Source: Pararhizobium mangrovi
GTDB lineage: Bacteria; Pseudomonadota; Alphaproteobacteria; Rhizobiales; Rhizobiaceae
Length of the DNA: 64,000 nucleotides
Direction of reading: 5' to 3'
Assembly: GCF_006516965.1 (NCBI RefSeq)
Contig: NZ_VHLH01000021.1
Location: 1-64,000, forward strand
Shown: one piece after another, positions 25,615 to 36,239 of the stretch
How the letters are laid out: each line of letters starts with the position of its first letter
Numbering within the stretch: the stretch's first letter is position 1
Notes under the pieces: model-generated
Databases searched by the model: none
Told to the model about the DNA's origin: nothing
The model's input: only the letters and a program-made list of their open reading frames with translations
Program-made: the position numbers and the translations under genes

Positions 25615-26463
25615 TCAGCCCTTCGTCGCGCCGAGCGTGAGGCCGGCGATGAAGTGGCGCTGCATCAGGAAGAACATGGCGACCGGCGGCAGGGCGGCGA
25701 CGATGGCACCGGCCGAGACGAGCTGCCACGACGCCACCCATTGGCCGTTCAACGTGTAGAGCCCCGCCGTCACCGGCTGCGCACCGGCACCCTGCGTCAG
25801 CACAAGCGCCCAGAAATAGTCGTTCCACACGAAGGTGAAGACGAGGACCGAAAGGGCGGCGATCGCCGGGCGCATGAGCGGCAGCACGATGTGCCAGAAG
25901 ATGCGGAATTCCGAAACGCCCTCGACCCGTGCCGATTCCAGAAGCTCGAAGGGAAGCGCCTTGATGAAATTGCGCATGAAGAGCGTACAGAAGCCCGTCT
26001 GGAACGCGACGTGGAAGAGCACGAGCCCTGTCACCGTGTCGTAAAGCCCGAGCTTCAGCGTCAGGTCGCGCACCGGCACCATGAGGATCTGAAAGGGCAC
26101 GAAATTGCCGGCGACGAAGATGAAGAAGACGAGAAGGTTCGTGCGGAAGCGATAGGTCGCGAGCGCGAAGCCCGTCAGGCAGGAAAGCGCCACCGCCCCG
26201 ATCACCGCCGGCACGGTAATGCGCAGCGAGTTGAAGAGGTACTGCGCCATCGGCGACTGGCGGAAGACGTCGAGATAGTTCGACAACGCGATCTGGCTCG
26301 GCACGCCGAAATAGTTGCCGTTGGCAAGGTCGCTCGCCGGGCGGATCGAAGTGATCGCGATGCCGATCAGCGGCAGGAGCCAGATGATCAGCGAGACGGG
26401 AAGCGCCACCTGGTAGAGCGCACGTCCACCGGTGCCGGCGCGTTCGATCGGACGTGGAAACAT
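25615..26463 (-). CDS. Sugar ABC transporter permease (MalG type)
   Basis: A 282-residue inner-membrane permease of a CUT1 carbohydrate importer. It has about six helices and the EAA loop ELLESARVEGVSEFRIFWHIVLP near residue 175, which contacts the ATPase. GGGAGGG precedes the ATG, and the gap to the upstream permease is 4 bases. Together with the neighbouring permease, binding protein and the ATPase at 29830 it likely imports alpha/beta-galactosides. Confidence 0.92.
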   Translation of the reverse strand: MFPRPIERAGTGGRALYQVALPVSLIIWLLPLIGIAITSIRPASDLANGNYFGVPSQIALSNYLDVFRQSPMAQYLFNSLRITVPAVIGAVALSCLTGFALATYRFRTNLLVFFIFVAGNFVPFQILMVPVRDLTLKLGLYDTVTGLVLFHVAFQTGFCTLFMRNFIKALPFELLESARVEGVSEFRIFWHIVLPLMRPAIAALSVLVFTFVWNDYFWALVLTQGAGAQPVTAGLYTLNGQWVASWQLVSAGAIVAALPPVAMFFLMQRHFIAGLTLGATKG

Positions 26464-26467
26464 TGCC

Positions 26468-27409
26468 TCAGCCCTCCCGTTCCGTGATCACCATGCGCCA
26501 GATGAAGCCGGTGATGAAAAGCATCATGATCAGGAAGAGGACGACGGCGATCGCCGCGCCGTATCCCATGCGGTAGCCGTATTCCGAAAGCGCCTGCTCG
26601 TACATGTAGAAGGAGAGAACCCGGCTCGTGCCGTAAGGCCCGCCATCGGTCATGATCGAGACGAGGTCGAAGGAGCGCAGCGCGCCGATGACCGTCACGA
26701 CCATGGCGATGAAGGTCGCCGGGCGAAGCTGCGGCAAGATCACGTACCACAGCATCCGCCAGCCCTTGGCGTTGTCGAGCCTGCCTGCCTCGACCTGCTC
26801 GGGCGAGACGTTGTTGAGCCCCGTCAGGTAGAGGATCATGCAGTAGGCGATCTGCGGCCAGAGCCCGGCGGCGATGATGCCGTAGGTCACGAACCGCGCA
26901 TCGGCGAGCACCGCGATCTTGCCGAGACCGAGCGCATCGGTGATCTGCGGAAAGAGCCCGATATTCGGCGCGTAGAACCACGAGAAGATGAGGCCGACGA
27001 CCACCTGGCTGATGACGAAAGGAAAGAAGAAGAGCGACTTGTAGACGCGGATGCCGATGACGTTCTGGTTCAGGAAGATCGCGATCATCAGGCCGGCCGG
27101 GATCGCGAGCAGGTAGAGAACGAGCCACAGGACGTTGTTCCACAGCGAAGTGTAGAACGCCGGATCGCCGAGAAGCTCGGTATAATTGCTGAGCCCGATC
27201 CACGTCATCTCGCTCAGCCCGTCCCATTGGTAGAACGAGATCCAGATCGATTCGAAGATCGGAAGGATGACGTAGACCAGGAACATCAGCGCGCCGGGCG
27301 CCAGGAAGAGGGCCGGCGCGAGCCTGCGCTGGTTGCGCTTCCAGAACGGCATGCGCCGCTGCTCGAGATTGGCCGCGGTGGCCGAGGCAGAGGCTGCGGC
27401 GGTGCTCAT
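26468..27409 (-). CDS. Sugar ABC transporter permease (MalF type)
   Basis: A 313-residue permease partner of the MalG-type protein. It has a hydrophobic first helix (LAPALFLAPGALMFLVYVILP) and an EAA loop EQVEAGRLDNAKGWRMLWYVILP near residue 210. I use ATG 27409 rather than 27415 because GGAGG sits 6 bases upstream of the former and directly abuts the latter. It is followed closely by the second permease and preceded by the binding-protein gene after about 86 bases. Confidence 0.92.
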   Translation of the reverse strand: MSTAAASASATAANLEQRRMPFWKRNQRRLAPALFLAPGALMFLVYVILPIFESIWISFYQWDGLSEMTWIGLSNYTELLGDPAFYTSLWNNVLWLVLYLLAIPAGLMIAIFLNQNVIGIRVYKSLFFFPFVISQVVVGLIFSWFYAPNIGLFPQITDALGLGKIAVLADARFVTYGIIAAGLWPQIAYCMILYLTGLNNVSPEQVEAGRLDNAKGWRMLWYVILPQLRPATFIAMVVTVIGALRSFDLVSIMTDGGPYGTSRVLSFYMYEQALSEYGYRMGYGAAIAVVLFLIMMLFITGFIWRMVITEREG

Positions 27410-27495
27410 CGTCATCCTCCCAAAAGTCGATCAGGCCGGAAATCGATCACGAACGCCCGCCGGCGGTCGGCCGGCGGGCGAAGAGAGGCGAACGC

Positions 27496-28734
27496 CTAGT
27501 TCGAGTAGACCCGCTTGCGCACGCTTTCGAGGCGCTGGAGGATCTGGTCGATCTGGTCCGGCTGCGCCATGAACTGCTGGAAACCTTCCATGCCGGCCTT
27601 CGCCATCTGCGCCGGTGCGTCGCGATCGTAGAACTGCGACAGGTTCGAAGCGCTCGAAAGCATCTTCGCCCCCTGCTGCAGCAGCGGGTCGTCGGCGATC
27701 TTCGACTGGCTGTTGACCGGAAGCTGGCCGAGAATGTCGTTCATCTTGGCCTGAGTCTCGGGCTTTGCAATGAACGCCATGAACTTCCTGGCGTCCTCCT
27801 TGTTGCTGGCGTTCGCGGCCATCGCCACCATCTCGGTCGGCGCGTCCTCGGCCCGCGGCACGTCCTTGTTGATCGTCGGGAAGGAGACGAAGCCGACCTT
27901 GCTTTCGTCGAGCCCGGCGTTCTTCATGACGTCGACGGCGAAATTGCCCATTAGATACATCGCCGCCTTGCCCTGCACGAAGAGCGGCACGGCGTCCTGC
28001 CAGTCGAGGGCGGCTGCGTTCTTGGTGAAGTAGCCGGGCTTCACGAGCTGCGCCCAGTTCTCGAAGACCTTCTTCACGCGCTCGTCGGTGTAGGGAACCT
28101 CGCCCTGCGTCAGCTTCATATGGAAGGCGTAGCCGTTGGTGCGCAGGTCCAGGTAGTCGAACCAGCCGGCCGCGGGCCAGAGCGCCTTCGTGCCGATGGC
28201 GAAGGGCGTGATGCCGGCATCGCTCAGCTTCTTGCAGTCGGCGAGCAGATCGTCCCACGTCTTCGGCGGCTCGATGCCTTGCTTCTCGAAGATGTCCTTC
28301 CGGTAGTAGATCGCCCACGGATAGTAGCTGTAGGGGATCGCCCACTGCTTGCCGTTGGCGCTGACGGCGGACTTCGCCGACTTGAGCTGCGAATCGAGAT
28401 CGTTCTCGCTCCACAGATCCGAAATGTCGGCGAACAGGTGCGCGTCCACGAAGGGAAGCATCCGGTTGCCGGAGTACCAGGTCACCACATCGGGTGCATC
28501 GGCGGTGAGGAAGTTGCGGATCGCGCTCTTGAAGCCTTCGTGATCGAAGACGTTCCACTTCACCTTCACGTCCGGATTGGCCTTCTGGAAAGCGTCGATC
28601 GCGTATTTGAACGCGCCCTTCGGGCCTGGATCGGACGTATCCGTGTTGATGGTGATCGTGCCGGCAAGCGCCGACGTCGTCATCAGCGCTGCTGCAGCAG
28701 CACCGAGCATCATGGTCTTTACGGAAAATCGCAT
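27496..28734 (-). CDS. Sugar ABC transporter substrate-binding protein
   Basis: A 412-residue periplasmic CUT1 binding protein. [25 protein letters not shown] is a Sec signal peptide; the mature protein has the bilobal family pattern ([31 protein letters not shown]). GGAGGAG lies upstream of ATG 28734. First gene of the leftward galactoside operon, it should define transporter specificity, most probably for galactosyl oligosaccharides given the two galactosidases. Its promoter region is shared with the divergent IclR regulator. Confidence 0.92.
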
Positions 28735-28807
28735 GGAATAACTCCTCCTCCGGGATCGATAGTCTTGCGAGACGGGCCCGAACGCCGGGCCTTTCGCATT
28801 CAATCAT

Positions 28808-28826
28808 CGTTCCGATATTTGGAACG
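28808..28826. promoter_or_regulatory. Perfect palindrome, probable IclR operator
   Basis: CGTTCC-GATATTT-GGAACG (28808-28826) is a perfect 6-bp inverted repeat with a 7-base spacer, in the shared region between the sugar-binding-protein gene and the divergent IclR gene. IclR dimers bind such dyads. The assignment to this IclR is inference from position. Confidence 0.65.
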
Positions 28827-28945
28827 TTATTTGACTATACAGAACTATTTGCCTAAGCTATGCTCGCTGTCAAGGACAATTGGCGGAACGACGCCAGCTT
28901 GCGGCGAAGGCCGCGATTGCGAGAAGAACGAAGGAAACGCCATCG

Positions 28946-29752
28946 ATGGAGGCGGAACGGACGAGGCCACGCCCATCCGGGTCGGCGAACGGCACAGGCA
29001 CGCTCGGCAAGGCGATCGACGTGCTCGAACTCGTCGCCGAGACGGACGAGCCGATCCGCTTCACCGAGATCCTGCGCCGCTGCGACCAGCCGCGCGGCAC
29101 GCTGCATCGCCAGCTCAGCAACCTCGTCGAGGAGGGGCTTCTGGTCGTCAATCGCGACCATTCCTATTCGCTCGGCGTCCGCCTCCTGAAATTCGCTTCC
29201 AAGGCCTGGGCGAACAACGAGTTCCGCGTGATCGCCGAGCCGCATCTGCGCCGCCTGCACGAGCTGACCGGCGAGACCGTGCACATGGGCGTGCTTCGCG
29301 GGCTGGAAGTCATCTATCTCGACAAGGTCGAAAGCCGGCAGGCCGTGCGCATGTACTCGCAGATCGGCAACGCCTCCCCGGTGTTTTGCACCGGCGTCGG
29401 CAAGGCCGCCCTCTCCTGCCTTTCGAAGGAGACGGTCGAGGAGATGTTGCCGCGCATCGCGTTTCGTCGCTTCACCGAACACACGCTGGTCGATCCAGCG
29501 ACCTTCGCGAAGGCGATCGACCGGGCACGCAGCGAAGGCGTCGCCTACGATCGCGAGGAACACGAGATCGGCATCCGCTGCGTCGCCGCCCCGATCCACA
29601 CGGCGGATCGAAGCTTCGTCGCCGGCATCTCGGTGACGGCGCCGGCCTATCGCGCCGGCGAGGAAACGATTGCCGGCTGGGTCGATCTCGTGCGCGAGGC
29701 GGCCGCCGCGATCATGGACGACATGCGCAACCGCCTCGGCCCCCGGGTCTGA
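28946..29752 (+). CDS. IclR family transcriptional regulator of the galactoside operon
   Basis: A 268-residue IclR regulator: N-terminal winged helix near residues 15-75 ([21 protein letters not shown]) and C-terminal GAF-like effector domain ([46 protein letters not shown]). ATG 28946 follows AAGGAAA; an upstream TTG at 28880 is a weaker alternative. It is divergent from the galactoside operon and directly upstream of its transport ATPase, so it very likely regulates both. The inducer is unknown, perhaps galactose or a pathway acid. Confidence 0.9.
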
Positions 29753-29829
29753 AGTCGGCGCGCATCGAGACAAACGCCGGCGCCGAGACGCCGAAACAAC
29801 GTGACCCGATCCTGGGAGGAGTTCGAAGA

Positions 29830-30912
29830 ATGGCCGGTCTGGAACTGAGCAAAGTCCGAAAGTCCTTCGGCGCGGCGGAAGTCATCCACGGCGTCGACCT
29901 GACGATCGACGAGGGCGAATTCGTCGTCTTCGTCGGCCCGTCGGGCTGCGGCAAGTCCACGCTTTTGCGCATGGTGGCCGGGCTCGAACAGACCTCCAGC
30001 GGCCAGATCCACATCGGCGGAACCGACGTGACGCGCTACGAGCCGGCCGAGCGCGGCATCGCCATGGTCTTCCAGTCCTACGCGCTCTACCCGCATATGA
30101 GCGTCGCCGAGAACATGGGTTTCGGCCTGAAGATGACCGGCTACAAGAAGGACGATGTCGACCGGCGCGTGAAGAAGGCCGCGGAGATCCTGCATCTGGA
30201 ACCCCTGCTCGATCGCAAGCCGAAGGCGCTTTCGGGCGGCCAGCGCCAGCGGGTGGCGATCGGGCGAGCGATCGTTCGCGAACCGCAGGTCTTTCTCTTC
30301 GACGAGCCGCTTTCCAACCTCGACGCCGAATTGCGCGTGCAGATGCGCCTCGAGATCGCCAAGCTGCACAAGGAACTGGACGTGACGATGATCTACGTCA
30401 CCCACGACCAGGTCGAGGCGATGACGCTGGCCGACAAGATCGTGGTGCTGCACGACGGGCGCATCGAACAGGCCGGCACGCCGCTCCACCTCTACGACGA
30501 CCCCGACAACATGTTCGTCGCCGGCTTTCTCGGTTCGCCGCGCATCAATTTCCTCGAAGCCGTCGTCAAGCGCTCGGAAGGCGACCGTCTGGTCGTCGCA
30601 CTTCCGGCCTTCGACGACATCGAGGCGCCGCTGCCGATCGCCGAGAGCCATCCGCAGGAAGGCCGCACGCTGCGGCTTGGCATCCGGCCCGAGCATCTCT
30701 CGCCCGACGGTTCGGTCCGCTTCTCCGCGAAGGTCGACGTCGTGGAAAACCTCGGCGGCGTTTCCTTCGCCTATGCGAATTCGCATTGGGAGGATCCGTT
30801 CGTCATCGAGATGAAGACGCGGCGGGCGAGCGAAGGCGAGACGCTGCAAACGGGTTTCGATCCGGAAAAGGCGTTGCTCTTCGACCCGCAAAGCGAACTG
30901 CGCATCCGTTAG
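29830..30912 (+). CDS. Sugar ABC transporter ATP-binding protein (UgpC/MalK type)
   Basis: A 360-residue CUT1 ATPase. Walker [10 protein letters not shown] at residues 37-45, ABC signature [10 protein letters not shown], Walker [16 protein letters not shown] and the H-loop THDQ are intact, and a C-terminal TOBE region follows (LGIRPEHL). GGAGGAG precedes ATG 29830. It is 77 bases after the IclR gene and is the only ATPase near the two permeases at 25615-27409, so it should power them. UgpC-type ATPases can serve several permease sets. Confidence 0.94.
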
Positions 30913-31136: not shown

Positions 31137-32081
31137 TTAATCTTGCGCCGAATGCTTCGCCAACGCATCGAGATTGCGTTGAAGGGTTTTGGACTTTGCC
31201 GTTCCCAGGAGAAGCGAACTCGTCGCCTTATGCCGCTTGGCAAACAGTAATGCGGCGGTTGCAAGTGTCATTCCCTGTTCTTCCGCGCGCGTTTGAAGGT
31301 CCCTGACCTGATCCATGATCTCCGGCGATGCCCGGCCGTAGTCATAAGTCGCATCCGGCACGGGACCCGTTGCCAGAATACCGGAATTGAAGATGCCGCC
31401 CAGTACCAGGCTGGTTTCGGCCGCCAGACACCGGGGGACCAGTTCAACCTCGGCGGAACGGTCGAGAAGTGTGAGCCTTCCGGCCAGCAGGATCACGTCG
31501 ATCGGGCCATGGTCCATGACGTCGAGGCAGACCTGGCATTCGTTCACGCCCAGACCGAAGGCGCCGATGCGACCGGCCGCCTTCAATTGCGTCAGGCGAT
31601 CGTAGCCGGACGAAAGGAATGCCTCCATATGCCCGTCGTTGTGGTCGCCATGGGTGTATCGCCCCAGATCATGGACGTAGACGATGTCGACGTGATCCAG
31701 GCCGAGGCGTTCCAGGCTTTGCTCCAGGCTCGCTTCGATCCCGTCCCCGGAATAGTCGTAGACGACATCGTTCTGCAGCGGCTTCACGTAGCCGTCGGCC
31801 TGTTCGATCGGGTGATCGGACGGGCTGAGCAGACGACCGACCTTCGTGGACAGGCGATATCCACTTCGTCCGGCGAGAAAATGTCCGAGACGCTGTTCGG
31901 ACCGACCGCGTCCGTAATGCGGCGCCGTATCGAAATAGCGGATGCCGGCATCCCACGCGGTCTGCAGAACTGCGTGAGCGTCGTCGTCGTCCACCTCGCG
32001 GTAGAGATTTCCGATGCTCGCACCACCGAATGAGACGTCGGTGACCTCGATATCGGTACGTCCGATGCGGTTCGTCTTCAT
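31137..32081 (-). CDS. Aldo/keto reductase (aldose 1-dehydrogenase-like)
   Basis: A 314-residue AKR of the D-threo-aldose 1-dehydrogenase/L-fucose dehydrogenase-like subgroup. The catalytic set is visible: D and Y in YFDTAPHYGRGRSEQ, K in LSTKVGRLL, H in DIVYVHDLG. It lacks a signal peptide and is cytoplasmic. By context (lactonase-type amidohydrolase and UxaA dehydratase nearby) it may oxidise L-fucose or a similar sugar to its lactone. ATG 32081 is chosen as homologues begin MKTNRIGRT. It is 245 bases downstream of the GntR gene on the same strand; that gap holds nothing obvious. Confidence 0.85.
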   Translation of the reverse strand: MKTNRIGRTDIEVTDVSFGGASIGNLYREVDDDDAHAVLQTAWDAGIRYFDTAPHYGRGRSEQRLGHFLAGRSGYRLSTKVGRLLSPSDHPIEQADGYVKPLQNDVVYDYSGDGIEASLEQSLERLGLDHVDIVYVHDLGRYTHGDHNDGHMEAFLSSGYDRLTQLKAAGRIGAFGLGVNECQVCLDVMDHGPIDVILLAGRLTLLDRSAEVELVPRCLAAETSLVLGGIFNSGILATGPVPDATYDYGRASPEIMDQVRDLQTRAEEQGMTLATAALLFAKRHKATSSLLLGTAKSKTLQRNLDALAKHSAQD

Positions 32082-32326: not shown

Positions 32327-33217
32327 TCAATACGGCTTGAGAGAAGCTAGAAGCGTACGTCGCGCCGTTGTCAGATGGGTGCAGGCGCAGTGACGGATGC
32401 GCTCGGCATCGCGGCTTCTCAACGCTTCGATGTAGGCGAGATGCTCCCGGATGGCGGCTTCGTTTCGTTGCCGCTCGGAATGTCTGTTCCACTGATAGTG
32501 ATAGTGGAAGACAAGCGATATGACCTCCTGAAACTCGCGTACGAAACGGTTCCCGGTGATGTCGGTGATGAGAGTATGGAACCGGTCGTCCAGAACGGAA
32601 AAGTCCCGGTAAGCATCCTCGATATGGGCAAGCAGGGCTCGATGGTCCGCCTCCAGTCGGTCGAGTTCGAGCCAGACGGCATGATCCTCGGGCAACTCGG
32701 CGAACCGCACGGCAGCGTCGAGTTCGATCATCGTTCGGAACTGCGAGAGTTCGATCGCATAGTCGGAGGTGAACCCGCGAAGCCGCCAGCCACCTCGACC
32801 GGTATGGTCGACGAGACCGAAACGACCGAGGCGAGCGAGAAAGCTCGTGACGACGAGCGGCGTGACGGAGAAACGCCGCGCCAGTTCGCTGACGTTCAGT
32901 TTTGCGCCGGGAGCCAGGCCGCGATGCAACGTCCACTCCAGGAACGGTCGTTCGAAGCGCTCGCTGTCGCTCGTTAACTCGCCGTCGGGAAACCGGTCCG
33001 AACGACGCGGATTGCGCACGACGCGCTTTTCGCGGCCGTTCCACTCGATGACACCACGTTCGTCGAGTTCCGCTAGAACGCTGCGAACGACCGTTCGGCT
33101 GACGCCGAGCCGATCGGCGAGGGCATGTTCGGATACGAGGACGCGCTCCTTCTCGGACCCGATCAGTTCGAGAAGAGCGTTGTAGGCATTCTTGAAACGA
33201 GTGTTCTTGCGCGCCAT
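32327..33217 (-). CDS. GntR-type regulator with two winged helices and an FCD domain
   Basis: A 296-residue regulator. A first GntR-like winged helix spans about residues 10-68 (LVSEHALADRLGVSRTVVRSVL), a second about 88-150 (LNVSELARRFSVTPLVVTSFL), and then a helical FCD effector domain (IELSQFRTMIELDAAVRF, DDRFHTLITDITGNRFV). The tandem arrangement is unusual, as most FadR-family proteins carry one. It is divergent from the broken sugar transporter at 33344 and upstream of the AKR, and probably controls this sugar-acid locus. Confidence 0.85.
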   Translation of the reverse strand: MARKNTRFKNAYNALLELIGSEKERVLVSEHALADRLGVSRTVVRSVLAELDERGVIEWNGREKRVVRNPRRSDRFPDGELTSDSERFERPFLEWTLHRGLAPGAKLNVSELARRFSVTPLVVTSFLARLGRFGLVDHTGRGGWRLRGFTSDYAIELSQFRTMIELDAAVRFAELPEDHAVWLELDRLEADHRALLAHIEDAYRDFSVLDDRFHTLITDITGNRFVREFQEVISLVFHYHYQWNRHSERQRNEAAIREHLAYIEALRSRDAERIRHCACTHLTTARRTLLASLKPY

Positions 33218-33343
33218 GACTTTCGTACAGTTCTGACAACCACCCGATTATGAACAGCAAAATTCGAATTGTACAGAAATAATTAAAAACCGTTGACGTT
33301 GGTTCGGGTACGATATCCTATGTCGTTGGGAGGATGAGCGAGC

Positions 33344-33757
33344 ATGAGCACCATCGGCGAAACACCGAAGCGAGGCTTCGAACCGGCCGATGTTCTGTCC
33401 GGCCTGAAGCGACGCGGCGACATGCTCCAGCGCATCTCCGCGCTCGCGACGCTGGTGCTCCTGATCATCGCCTTTTCGTTCATGAACGACGCGTTCTTCT
33501 CGATGCGCAACGGCATGAGCGTACTTTTGCAGACTGCCGTCATCGGCCCGCTCGGCATCGGCGTCACCGTCGTCATCTCCCTCGTCTGCCACGACATGCA
33601 CGACGTCTTCCGACTGTGCGACCGGGTCATGGTGATGAACAATAGCCGCAGTGTCGGCGAACATGCCATCGACTAGGTCACCAAGGACGATGTCCTCAGC
33701 CTCATCATGAAGGGCGAAACGCGCGGCGGCCGGCAGCCGCGCAACGCGGCCGCCTGA
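33344..33757 (+). pseudogene. Fused remnant of sugar ABC permease and ATPase (RbsC-RbsA type)
   Basis: The first 75 codons read as the N-terminus of an RbsC-type permease (RISALATLVLLIIAFSFMND, then LQTAVIGPLGIGVTVVI). Codons 77 onward read as the C-terminus of an RbsA-type ATPase (CHDMHDVFRLCDRVMVM). A TAG at 33674 interrupts it, and the same frame continues as VTKDDVLSLIMKGETRGG to a TGA at 33755. So most of the permease and the N-terminal 85 percent or so of the ATPase are missing, and an internal stop is present. It cannot make a working transporter. Confidence 0.85.
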
Positions 33758-33778: not shown

Positions 33779-33859
33779 ATGACGGAAACGATGCAGGCCC
33801 TCGTCTGCGGCGAACCCGGTACCCTCAGGCTCGAAGACCGTGCCCTGCGGACGCATTGA
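33779..33859 (+). pseudogene. Alcohol dehydrogenase N-terminal relic
   Basis: A 26-codon frame beginning MTETMQALVCGEPGTLRLED is the typical N-terminus of a zinc-dependent medium-chain alcohol dehydrogenase (MQALVCxxPGxL), but it ends at TGA 33857 and the lactonase gene begins 24 bases later. The catalytic and Rossmann parts are absent. It is best read as the 5' stub left by a deletion. Confidence 0.65.
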
Positions 33860-33882
33860 AGCCGTGGTGTAGAGGAAAATCG

Positions 33883-34725
33883 GTGCGTATCGACAGCCAC
33901 CAGCATTTCTGGACCTATTCTAAAAACGCCGACGATTTCGGCTGGATCGACGACCGGATGGAAGCGCTCAAGCGCGACTTTGGACCCGGCGATCTCTCAC
34001 CGGAGCTCGCGGCAGCGGGTTTCGACGGCTGCGTTGCGGTTCAGGCGCGCGAAACGCCGGCCGAAACCGATTTCCTGCTGACGATCGCCGACCGGCATGC
34101 CTTCGTTCGCGGCGTCGTCGGCTGGCTCGATCTGCGCGCGCCCGAAATCGAGGCGGACCTCGAACGCTACAGCGAGGCAAGGCGCCTCGTCGGCCTGCGC
34201 ATGCCGGTGCACGACTATCTGGACCCCGACTTCGCGAACGCAAAACCGCACGCGCGCGGCGTCGGCCTGTTGCGTCGGTACGGGCTGACCTACGATCTGC
34301 TGGTGCGTCCCGCGCAGCTTCCGGCGGCGAGCGCCCTTGCCCGGCGCTTCCCCGACCAGCCCTTCGTCCTCGACCATATCGCCAAACCCAACCTTACCGT
34401 TCAGCGCGACGACGCGTGGTTCGACCGGATCGGCGCGCTGGCCGCCTGCGACAACGTCTTCTGCAAGCTTTCTGGCATGGTGACGGAAGCCGACTGGGCC
34501 GATCCGCATTCGGCCCCCTTTACGGCTTATCTCGACCATGTGCTCGAACTGTTCGGCCCGAAGAGACTGATGATCGGTTCCGACTGGCCGGTCTGCACGC
34601 TCGCCGCGCCCTATCGCAGCGTGATCGGCATCGTCGAGCGCTGGGCAAAGGATCGGCTGAGCGACGACGAACGAACCGGCCTTTTCGGCGAGACGGCGTT
34701 TTCCTTCTACGGACTGGACCGATGA
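33883..34725 (+). CDS. Amidohydrolase family lactonase (L-fuconolactonase-like)
   Basis: A 280-residue TIM-barrel amidohydrolase of the COG3618 type. The start VRIDSHQHFW carries the first metal HxH pair, VLDHIAKP and the C-terminal MIGSDWPVC carry further ligands. Characterised relatives hydrolyse L-fuconolactone, rhamnonolactone or similar sugar lactones. I place the start at GTG 33883 with AGAGGAAA upstream, because the longer frame begins inside the alcohol dehydrogenase relic. Its stop overlaps the UxaA start by 4 bases (ATGA), so the two are coupled. Confidence 0.88.
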   Translation: MRIDSHQHFWTYSKNADDFGWIDDRMEALKRDFGPGDLSPELAAAGFDGCVAVQARETPAETDFLLTIADRHAFVRGVVGWLDLRAPEIEADLERYSEARRLVGLRMPVHDYLDPDFANAKPHARGVGLLRRYGLTYDLLVRPAQLPAASALARRFPDQPFVLDHIAKPNLTVQRDDAWFDRIGALAACDNVFCKLSGMVTEADWADPHSAPFTAYLDHVLELFGPKRLMIGSDWPVCTLAAPYRSVIGIVERWAKDRLSDDERTGLFGETAFSFYGLDR

Positions 34726-36239
34726 ACCACATGGATACTCTCGCAGCAGCACCATCCGCGCTCAAGCTCGGCGATGCCGACAATGTCGCGGTCGCCGTCA
34801 GGGCGCTTGGCGCCGGCGAACACATTCTCGGCGTAACGCTCGCCAGCGACGTCCCCGCCGGTCATAAATTCGCGCTGAAACGCGTGGCGACCGGCGATCC
34901 GGTCGTCAAGTACGGTCAGGTCATGGCCGCTGCAACGACCGAAATCGAGCCCGGCTCGCATGTCCACGTCCACAACTGCGCCATGGCGGATCTGCGCAAC
35001 GGCCATGCGGCCGCCGGCGCCTCGCTACCCGACATGCCGGTGCGCACGACGTTCGAAGGCTTCGCCCGGCCCAACGGGCGCATCGGCACGCGCAACTACA
35101 TCGCCGTGATGGCTTCGGTGAACTGTTCGACGACGGTCTGCCACGCGATCGCCGCGGCGGCGAACGCGACGCTTCTGCCGCGCTTTCCCGGCATCGACGG
35201 CTTCGTACCGCTGGTACACGACCAGGGATGCGGCATGGCGAATGCGGGAGAGGGGTTCGAAACCCTGGTCCGCACCCTGAAAGGCTACCGCGACCATCCG
35301 AACTTCGGCGGCGTTCTCATCATCGGCCTCGGCTGCGAGGTCAATCAGATCACGCTCTACAGGCCGACGGAATGGACGCGCGAGCGCTTCCAGACCTTCA
35401 ACATCCAGGAAGTCGGCGGCTCGCGATCGGCGGTGGACCGGGCGCTTGAGCTTCTCGAACCGATCGCTGTTGCGGCGAACCGGGACGAGCGTACGATCCT
35501 GCCCGTTTCCGGCCTGGTTCTCGGCATGCAATGCGGCGGATCGGACGGCTTTTCCGGGGTGTCGGCCAATCCCGCGCTCGGGGTCGCATCCGACATGCTG
35601 GTCGCGGCCGGCGGCACGTCCATCCTGTCCGAAACGCCGGAAATCTACGGCGCCGAACACCTCCTGATCGCGCGTTCCGACGCCGATACCGGTGCGCGCA
35701 TCGCCTCGATGATCGAGTGGTGGCGGGACTACGCAGCACGCAACGGTGCGACCCTCGACAACAACCCCTCGCCCGGCAACAAGAAGGGCGGGCTGACGAC
35801 GATCCTGGAGAAATCGCTTGGTGCTGTCGCCAAGGGGGGTCTGTCGCCCGTTGCAGGCGCTTATGCCTATGGTGAGCGAATAGATCGGACCGGCTTCGTC
35901 TACATGGACAGTCCCGGATACGACCCGGTCGCAGCGACCGGCCAGATTGCCTCCGGTGCCAACATCATGGCGTTCACCACCGGTCGTGGATCATGCTTCG
36001 GCGCCAAGCCGACGCCGAGCCTCAAGCTCGCCTCGAACAGCGCGCTCTTTCGTTCGATGCCCGAAGATATGGACATCGACTGCGGTGCCATCCTCGAAGG
36101 GCATGCCGGAATCGAAGAGGTCGGCGAGACGATCTACGACGCACTCCTCGACATGGCTTCGGGCAAGAGAACGTCATCGGAAGAATTCGGCTATGGCGAC
36201 AACGAATTCGTACCGTGGAAAATCGGCGCGACCCTGTAA
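34722..36239 (+). CDS. UxaA-family dehydratase (altronate dehydratase-like)
   Basis: A 505-residue protein with an N-terminal SAF-like domain (residues 1-95, LGAGEHILGVTLASDVPAGH, HVHNCAM) and a C-terminal galactarate dehydratase/altronate hydrolase domain (FARPNGRIGTRNYIAV, LGCEVNQI, VLGMQCGGSDGFSG, PSPGNKKGGLTTILEKSLGA, TTGRGSCFGAKPTPSLKL). It should dehydrate a sugar acid to a 2-keto-3-deoxy acid. The pairing with a COG3618 lactonase parallels the L-fucose island of Campylobacter, so L-fuconate is a plausible substrate; altronate is the alternative. No matching aldolase is in view. Confidence 0.88.
   Translation: MNHMDTLAAAPSALKLGDADNVAVAVRALGAGEHILGVTLASDVPAGHKFALKRVATGDPVVKYGQVMAAATTEIEPGSHVHVHNCAMADLRNGHAAAGASLPDMPVRTTFEGFARPNGRIGTRNYIAVMASVNCSTTVCHAIAAAANATLLPRFPGIDGFVPLVHDQGCGMANAGEGFETLVRTLKGYRDHPNFGGVLIIGLGCEVNQITLYRPTEWTRERFQTFNIQEVGGSRSAVDRALELLEPIAVAANRDERTILPVSGLVLGMQCGGSDGFSGVSANPALGVASDMLVAAGGTSILSETPEIYGAEHLLIARSDADTGARIASMIEWWRDYAARNGATLDNNPSPGNKKGGLTTILEKSLGAVAKGGLSPVAGAYAYGERIDRTGFVYMDSPGYDPVAATGQIASGANIMAFTTGRGSCFGAKPTPSLKLASNSALFRSMPEDMDIDCGAILEGHAGIEEVGETIYDALLDMASGKRTSSEEFGYGDNEFVPWKIGATL

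Follow-up and report, generated by a model that had tools for sequence, protein, structure and literature searches.

An ORF that begins at position 33344 of the window, by which we mean the whole 64,000-nt stretch of Pararhizobium mangrovi DNA analysed here, is an ordinary deletion-fusion pseudogene remnant in which the N-terminus of a permease is joined to the C-terminus of an ATPase. Very probably it is the scar that a deletion of about 2.4–2.6 kb left in a CUT2-type sugar importer operon, which encoded a permease, a binding protein, a single-domain ATPase and a dehydrogenase, in that order. The remnant is unable to make a transporter.

The ORF runs on the + strand from an ATG at 33344, is open for its first 110 codons, meets an in-frame TAG at 33674–33676, and can be read through in the same frame to a TGA at 33755–33757. 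The fused frame reads MSTIGETPKRG...LGIGVTVVIS-LVCHDMHDVF.... Its first 78 codons (33344–33577, +) correspond to the N-terminus of an RbsC-like permease of the BPD_transp_2 family, and the last ~60 codons (33575–33757, +) correspond to the C-terminal end of a sugar ABC ATPase of the single-domain type, starting shortly before the H-loop. When compared with the ORFs of six operons fetched from relatives, the permease half (residues 5–78 at the widest) was 57–67% identical to the three closest intact permeases, with a best E-value of 5e-22, and the ATPase half was 71–73% identical to the three closest intact ATPases, with a best E-value of 8e-26. In a search of the organism's own genome the ATPase remnant was aligned at 68% identity with one TAG. 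Because both halves match intact parents well, the fusion is not a chance resemblance, and the proposal of the initial annotation that a permease N-terminus had been joined to an ATPase C-terminus is upheld.

The 110-aa ORF contains no real Pfam domain, the only hit being RAD51D_N at an E-value of 0.076, below the cut-off of that model; this is expected, because the ORF consists of two fragments. BPD_transp_2 (PF02653), which scores 165 bits in an intact relative of the permease half (L033), found no match in the fused ORF, where residues 1–78 alone are left of the permease. PF00005, the domain in which the Walker A, signature and Walker B motifs of ABC ATPases lie, likewise had no match in the fused ORF up to the TAG, where the ATPase is left from just before the H-loop onward. 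A search of solved structures with the fused ORF returned weak ABC-ATPase matches (best E-value 0.027).

Intact versions of the parent operon were collected from relatives in two ways. A search with the permease half gave a match in 139 of 247 genomes, and six operons were fetched from it; 80 named loci came from a collection of genomes that was scanned with a divergent-regulator alignment. We counted an operon as intact when its permease and its ATPase were each at least 60% identical to the pair of L033, which yielded 21 operons from 86 loci after two duplicates had been dropped. The closest named intact operons are those of Aurantimonas sp. VKM B-3413 (L040, whose genes match L033 at 100%) and Jiella mangrovi (L039, with the same match figures as L034), and intact versions also occur in Ahrensia, Litoreibacter and others. 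All 21 intact operons contain a divergent regulator followed by permease, binding-protein and ATPase genes, and in 20 of them (the exception being L035) an alcohol dehydrogenase gene lies directly after the ATPase gene. In every one of the 21, the two halves of the fused frame are parts of two distinct genes, which keep the same order and strand. The parent operon thus had the permease gene before the ATPase gene, as had been proposed from the window, but the binding-protein gene that once lay between the two had been missed.

The halves of the remnant and their gene order derive from a CUT2-type sugar ABC importer operon; relative to an intact operon of this type, the remnant lacks the binding protein, and its permease and ATPase are reduced to ends. 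The RbsC label suits the permease half, of which the intact relative carries Pfam BPD_transp_2 and matches ribose-permease models. An RbsA-type ATPase, which had also been proposed, does not fit: RbsA has two nucleotide-binding domains and ~500 aa, whereas the intact parent-type ATPases in the six operons have one nucleotide-binding domain and 257–289 aa, and an intact relative of 257 aa matches residues 3–239 of the 501-aa RbsA model. We take the parent importer to have been of the FrcBCA-like single-ATPase form, and would label its ATPase FrcA-like. An intact relative of the lost binding protein is close to the structure 4wut, which is listed as a ribose-type binding protein and was reportedly solved with D-fucose. 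A 6-deoxyhexose or galactose-like sugar is a plausible former substrate.

To locate the joint we used a breakpoint likelihood over the 21 intact operons, which placed it at about 33570–33578. Calculated base by base, the likelihood put the first ATPase base best at 33574–33578, with 33570–33571 within 1.2 log units; with the three closest operons only, the two positions were tied. At the joint register (CATC, 33574–33577, +, placed by the breakpoint likelihood and by counts of shared strings in the 21 operons), the DNA common to permease and ATPase genes amounts to CATC in 5 operons (two of them among the three closest) and to ATC or ATT in another 8, whereas the remaining 8 share nothing. The 4 nt shared at the joint may therefore be accidental, given that nothing is shared in 8 of 21 operons. 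The intact operons also give the size of the loss. The distance between the two joint points is 2427–2553 nt (median 2456) in the 21 operons, and therefore about 2.4–2.6 kb was lost, a stretch that comprises the C-terminus of the permease, the whole of the binding-protein gene and the N-terminus of the ATPase.

We suggest that a single deletion joined permease codon ~78 to the last ~60 codons of the ATPase, most likely through illegitimate end-joining or slippage, with an identity of about 4 nt at most (CATC). The dehydrogenase would have been gutted by a further internal deletion of some 1 kb, in an order relative to the other changes that we can only suppose, and a nonsense codon would have arisen in the ATPase remnant. 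It is possible that several smaller deletions ended in the same join. Pseudogenes formed by short-homology (illegitimate) deletion are a known bacterial kind, and the remnant resembles them in its two gene ends, in the 0–4 nt shared at the joint, in its nonsense codon and in the decay of its flank. Measured against that kind, nothing is unusual here except the in-frame join, which is expected in one third of cases. Since one random join in three preserves the frame, the openness of the frame calls for no particular explanation, and the in-frame join is best taken as chance.

The joint lies at the end of the permease GVTVVI, and it had been proposed that the deletion arose by recombination at a GVTVVI-like stretch present in both the permease and the ATPase gene. 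We regard this as improbable. Alignment to the intact operons confirmed where the joint falls but not that the segment is common to both genes: the permease motif GMT[MVL]VI[IV]TGG is present in all 21 intact operons, whereas the ATPase motif before the H-loop is G[IV]GI[FL]L[VI][CS]HD in all 21 and never GVTVVI. The window reads GVTVVI-S-LVCHD, and therefore its GVTVVI is that of the permease, with the ATPase beginning at I or S. A longer DNA string shared by the two genes does exist, namely GGCATCGGCAT (11–12 nt in L036 and L038, with a variant in L035), but in the permease its start precedes the joint point by ~24 nt, in a different register. A join at GGCATCGGCAT would keep GIGIFL, which is not in the window, and therefore the longer repeat was not used. 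With the genus represented by this genome alone, the comparison is with relatives from outside it, and the ATPase of the direct parent could have differed at the joint.

Several observations bear on whether the fused frame might instead encode a new functional small membrane protein that arose by gene fusion and has been kept by selection. In favour, the fusion keeps the reading frame, and its first 110 codons are uninterrupted and lie behind a conserved promoter-like block. However, the frame has no Pfam domain, and it has no counterpart in the relatives examined, all of which lie outside the genus. Of the other fetched loci, 23 carry both halves on the same strand (the 21 operons plus the two duplicates), and none of these has the halves joined, the halves being 2425–2551 nt apart; joined halves occurred in three cases, all of them copies of the window itself. 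Nor was a fused gene seen among the permease matches listed, which lie in open frames of more than 300 aa except for the window's own and for G173:C270, a match that sits at a contig start. A conserved intact fused gene, which would have spoken against a deletion, was thus not seen among these relatives. The TAG lies inside the ATPase part, residues that are otherwise invariant are broken (including by L69P), and the next gene is wrecked. On this evidence we think a selected fusion protein very unlikely. That 2.5 kb was lost in the assembly rather than in the genome seems equally far-fetched: although the assembly is a draft of 70 contigs, two separate deletions and a nonsense codon lie side by side, the 0–4 nt shared at the joint in relatives is too little to collapse an assembly, and the missing parts were not found on any other contig.

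The initial annotation had advised looking for the missing part elsewhere in the genome, and we found no orthologue of the missing parts elsewhere in this genome (99.58% complete, a draft of 70 contigs). The best matches elsewhere were 31% identical for the binding protein, 46% for the permease, 43–44% for the ATPase and 31% for the dehydrogenase.

The deletion-fusion pseudogene is followed by what is left of the dehydrogenase gene. About 22 codons at 33779–33844 (+) correspond to the N-terminus of a zinc alcohol dehydrogenase, with 13 of 19 residues identical to the dehydrogenase directly after the ATPase in L034 (Jiella mangrovi). In another frame, 33849–33872 (+) encodes GRIEAVV*, probably what remains of this dehydrogenase's C-terminal end; it is similar to GLIKAVV, the C-terminal motif of intact dehydrogenases, and its match score was reached by 15 of 20000 shuffles and by 2 of 1488 tiles of the window. 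The dehydrogenases of L033 and L034 are 353 aa long, and by comparison the gene has probably undergone a second internal deletion of roughly 1 kb. A 16-nt direct repeat (33579–33594 and 33798–33813) pairs the codons for LVCHD of the ATPase with those for LVCGE of the dehydrogenase; we judged it to be a chance match. Elsewhere in the genome, a relative of the dehydrogenase (L143, G000:C22:7790-8692) contains an in-frame TAG and is perhaps another pseudogene.

Decay is also apparent at the level of single residues. Of the residues that do not vary among the 21 relatives, the window breaks 3 of 16 in the permease and 4 of 31 in the ATPase, including by L69P; in leave-one-out controls each relative breaks 0–2 of the invariant permease residues and 0–1 of those in the ATPase. 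These changes, together with the TAG at 33674, bear out the earlier reading of the later in-frame TAG as a sign of decay. In the adjacent regulator the count is 7 of 83 invariant residues, against 0–5 in its 21 controls. Since this is more than in any control, part of the divergence belongs to the lineage as a whole rather than to decay, and with 7 of 47 invariants broken in the remnant versus 7 of 83 in the regulator the test alone does not separate the two. The retained regulator (32327–33217) may be under relaxed constraint.

The genes on either side of the scar are open. The divergent regulator (32327–33217, −) is of the GntR/FCD family, is open over its full length with Pfam GntR and FCD domains, and is 54–61% identical to its counterparts next to the three closest intact operons. 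Between it and the permease start lies a putative promoter/operator block, GAAATAATTAAAAACC.TTGAC (33276–33297, +), to which we assign this role from its conservation: the block is nearly identical in the window and in three intact operons, whereas the leader after it differs. Downstream of the scar are an open fuconolactonase-like amidohydrolase gene (33883–34725, +; Pfam Amidohydro_2, E-value 3e-40), which matches the NCBIfam model FuconLaconase with an E-value of 6e-87 and a score of 292 bits that is below the cut-off of 400, and an open gene for a dehydratase of the UxaA/galactarate-dehydratase family (34722–36239, +; Pfam GD_AH_C, E-value 8e-96). The dehydratase is 51–58% identical to full-length matches in related clusters and scores 372 bits with the galactarate dehydratase model, below the cut-off of 731. 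On the far side of the regulator is an open gene for an aldo/keto reductase that resembles sugar 1-dehydrogenases (31137–32081, −; Pfam Aldo_ket_red); its best solved relatives are L-galactose dehydrogenases, and the same gene adjoins the regulator in many related loci.

Expression of the lactonase and dehydratase genes downstream may still depend on the promoter block. It is conceivable, though we hold it to be doubtful, that loss of the importer was accompanied by promoter capture: the deletions, together ~3.4 kb as estimated from relatives, would have put the regulated promoter of the importer beside the lactonase and dehydratase genes, and the pathway would have outlived its importer, with the sugar now made inside the cell or taken up via another transporter.

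A UxaA gene follows the dehydrogenase in 13 of the 21 intact operons; the three closest operons (L033–L035) have neither the lactonase nor UxaA in the stretch examined. Old membership of the lactonase in this operon is not supported: in none of the 21 does a lactonase match lie between dehydrogenase and dehydratase. Its closest relative (G065, 54% identity) adjoins a different importer and a 35% relative of the dehydrogenase. A single in-frame TGA interrupts each of the lactonase homologues of three relatives (G219:C24:43921-44751, G170:C16:756-1568 and G192:C49:6749-7573).

Directly beside the aldo/keto reductase lies a CUT1-type sugar importer cluster (25615–30912) that comprises a binding protein (27499–28803, −), two permeases, an IclR regulator (from 28880, +) and a UgpC/MalK-like ATPase (from 29818, +). 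We considered this cluster as a replacement importer and did not adopt it, as synteny gives no link to the lactonase: inspected by eye, tables of 247 genomes each contained 25 relatives with homologues of both the CUT1 binding protein and the lactonase, and among the matches listed none of the 25 has the two within 100 kb on one contig, the nearest being ~145 kb apart (G246). Many of the loci L055–L111 (Rhizobium, Ensifer, Shinella and others) pair this regulator and aldo/keto reductase with another importer, whose ATPase has two domains; UxaA is often present as well. As this type of regulator adjoins a different importer in many loci, the neighbourhood appears to have switched importer more than once.

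The importance of the remnant extends little beyond an example of decay and a lesson about motifs. As to the lesson, before calling a shared protein motif a recombination site, one should look for it in the actual orthologues. As to the decay, the locus is a clean example of how an operon falls apart, in which the ends of genes show the former content and intact relatives place the joint within a few bases.
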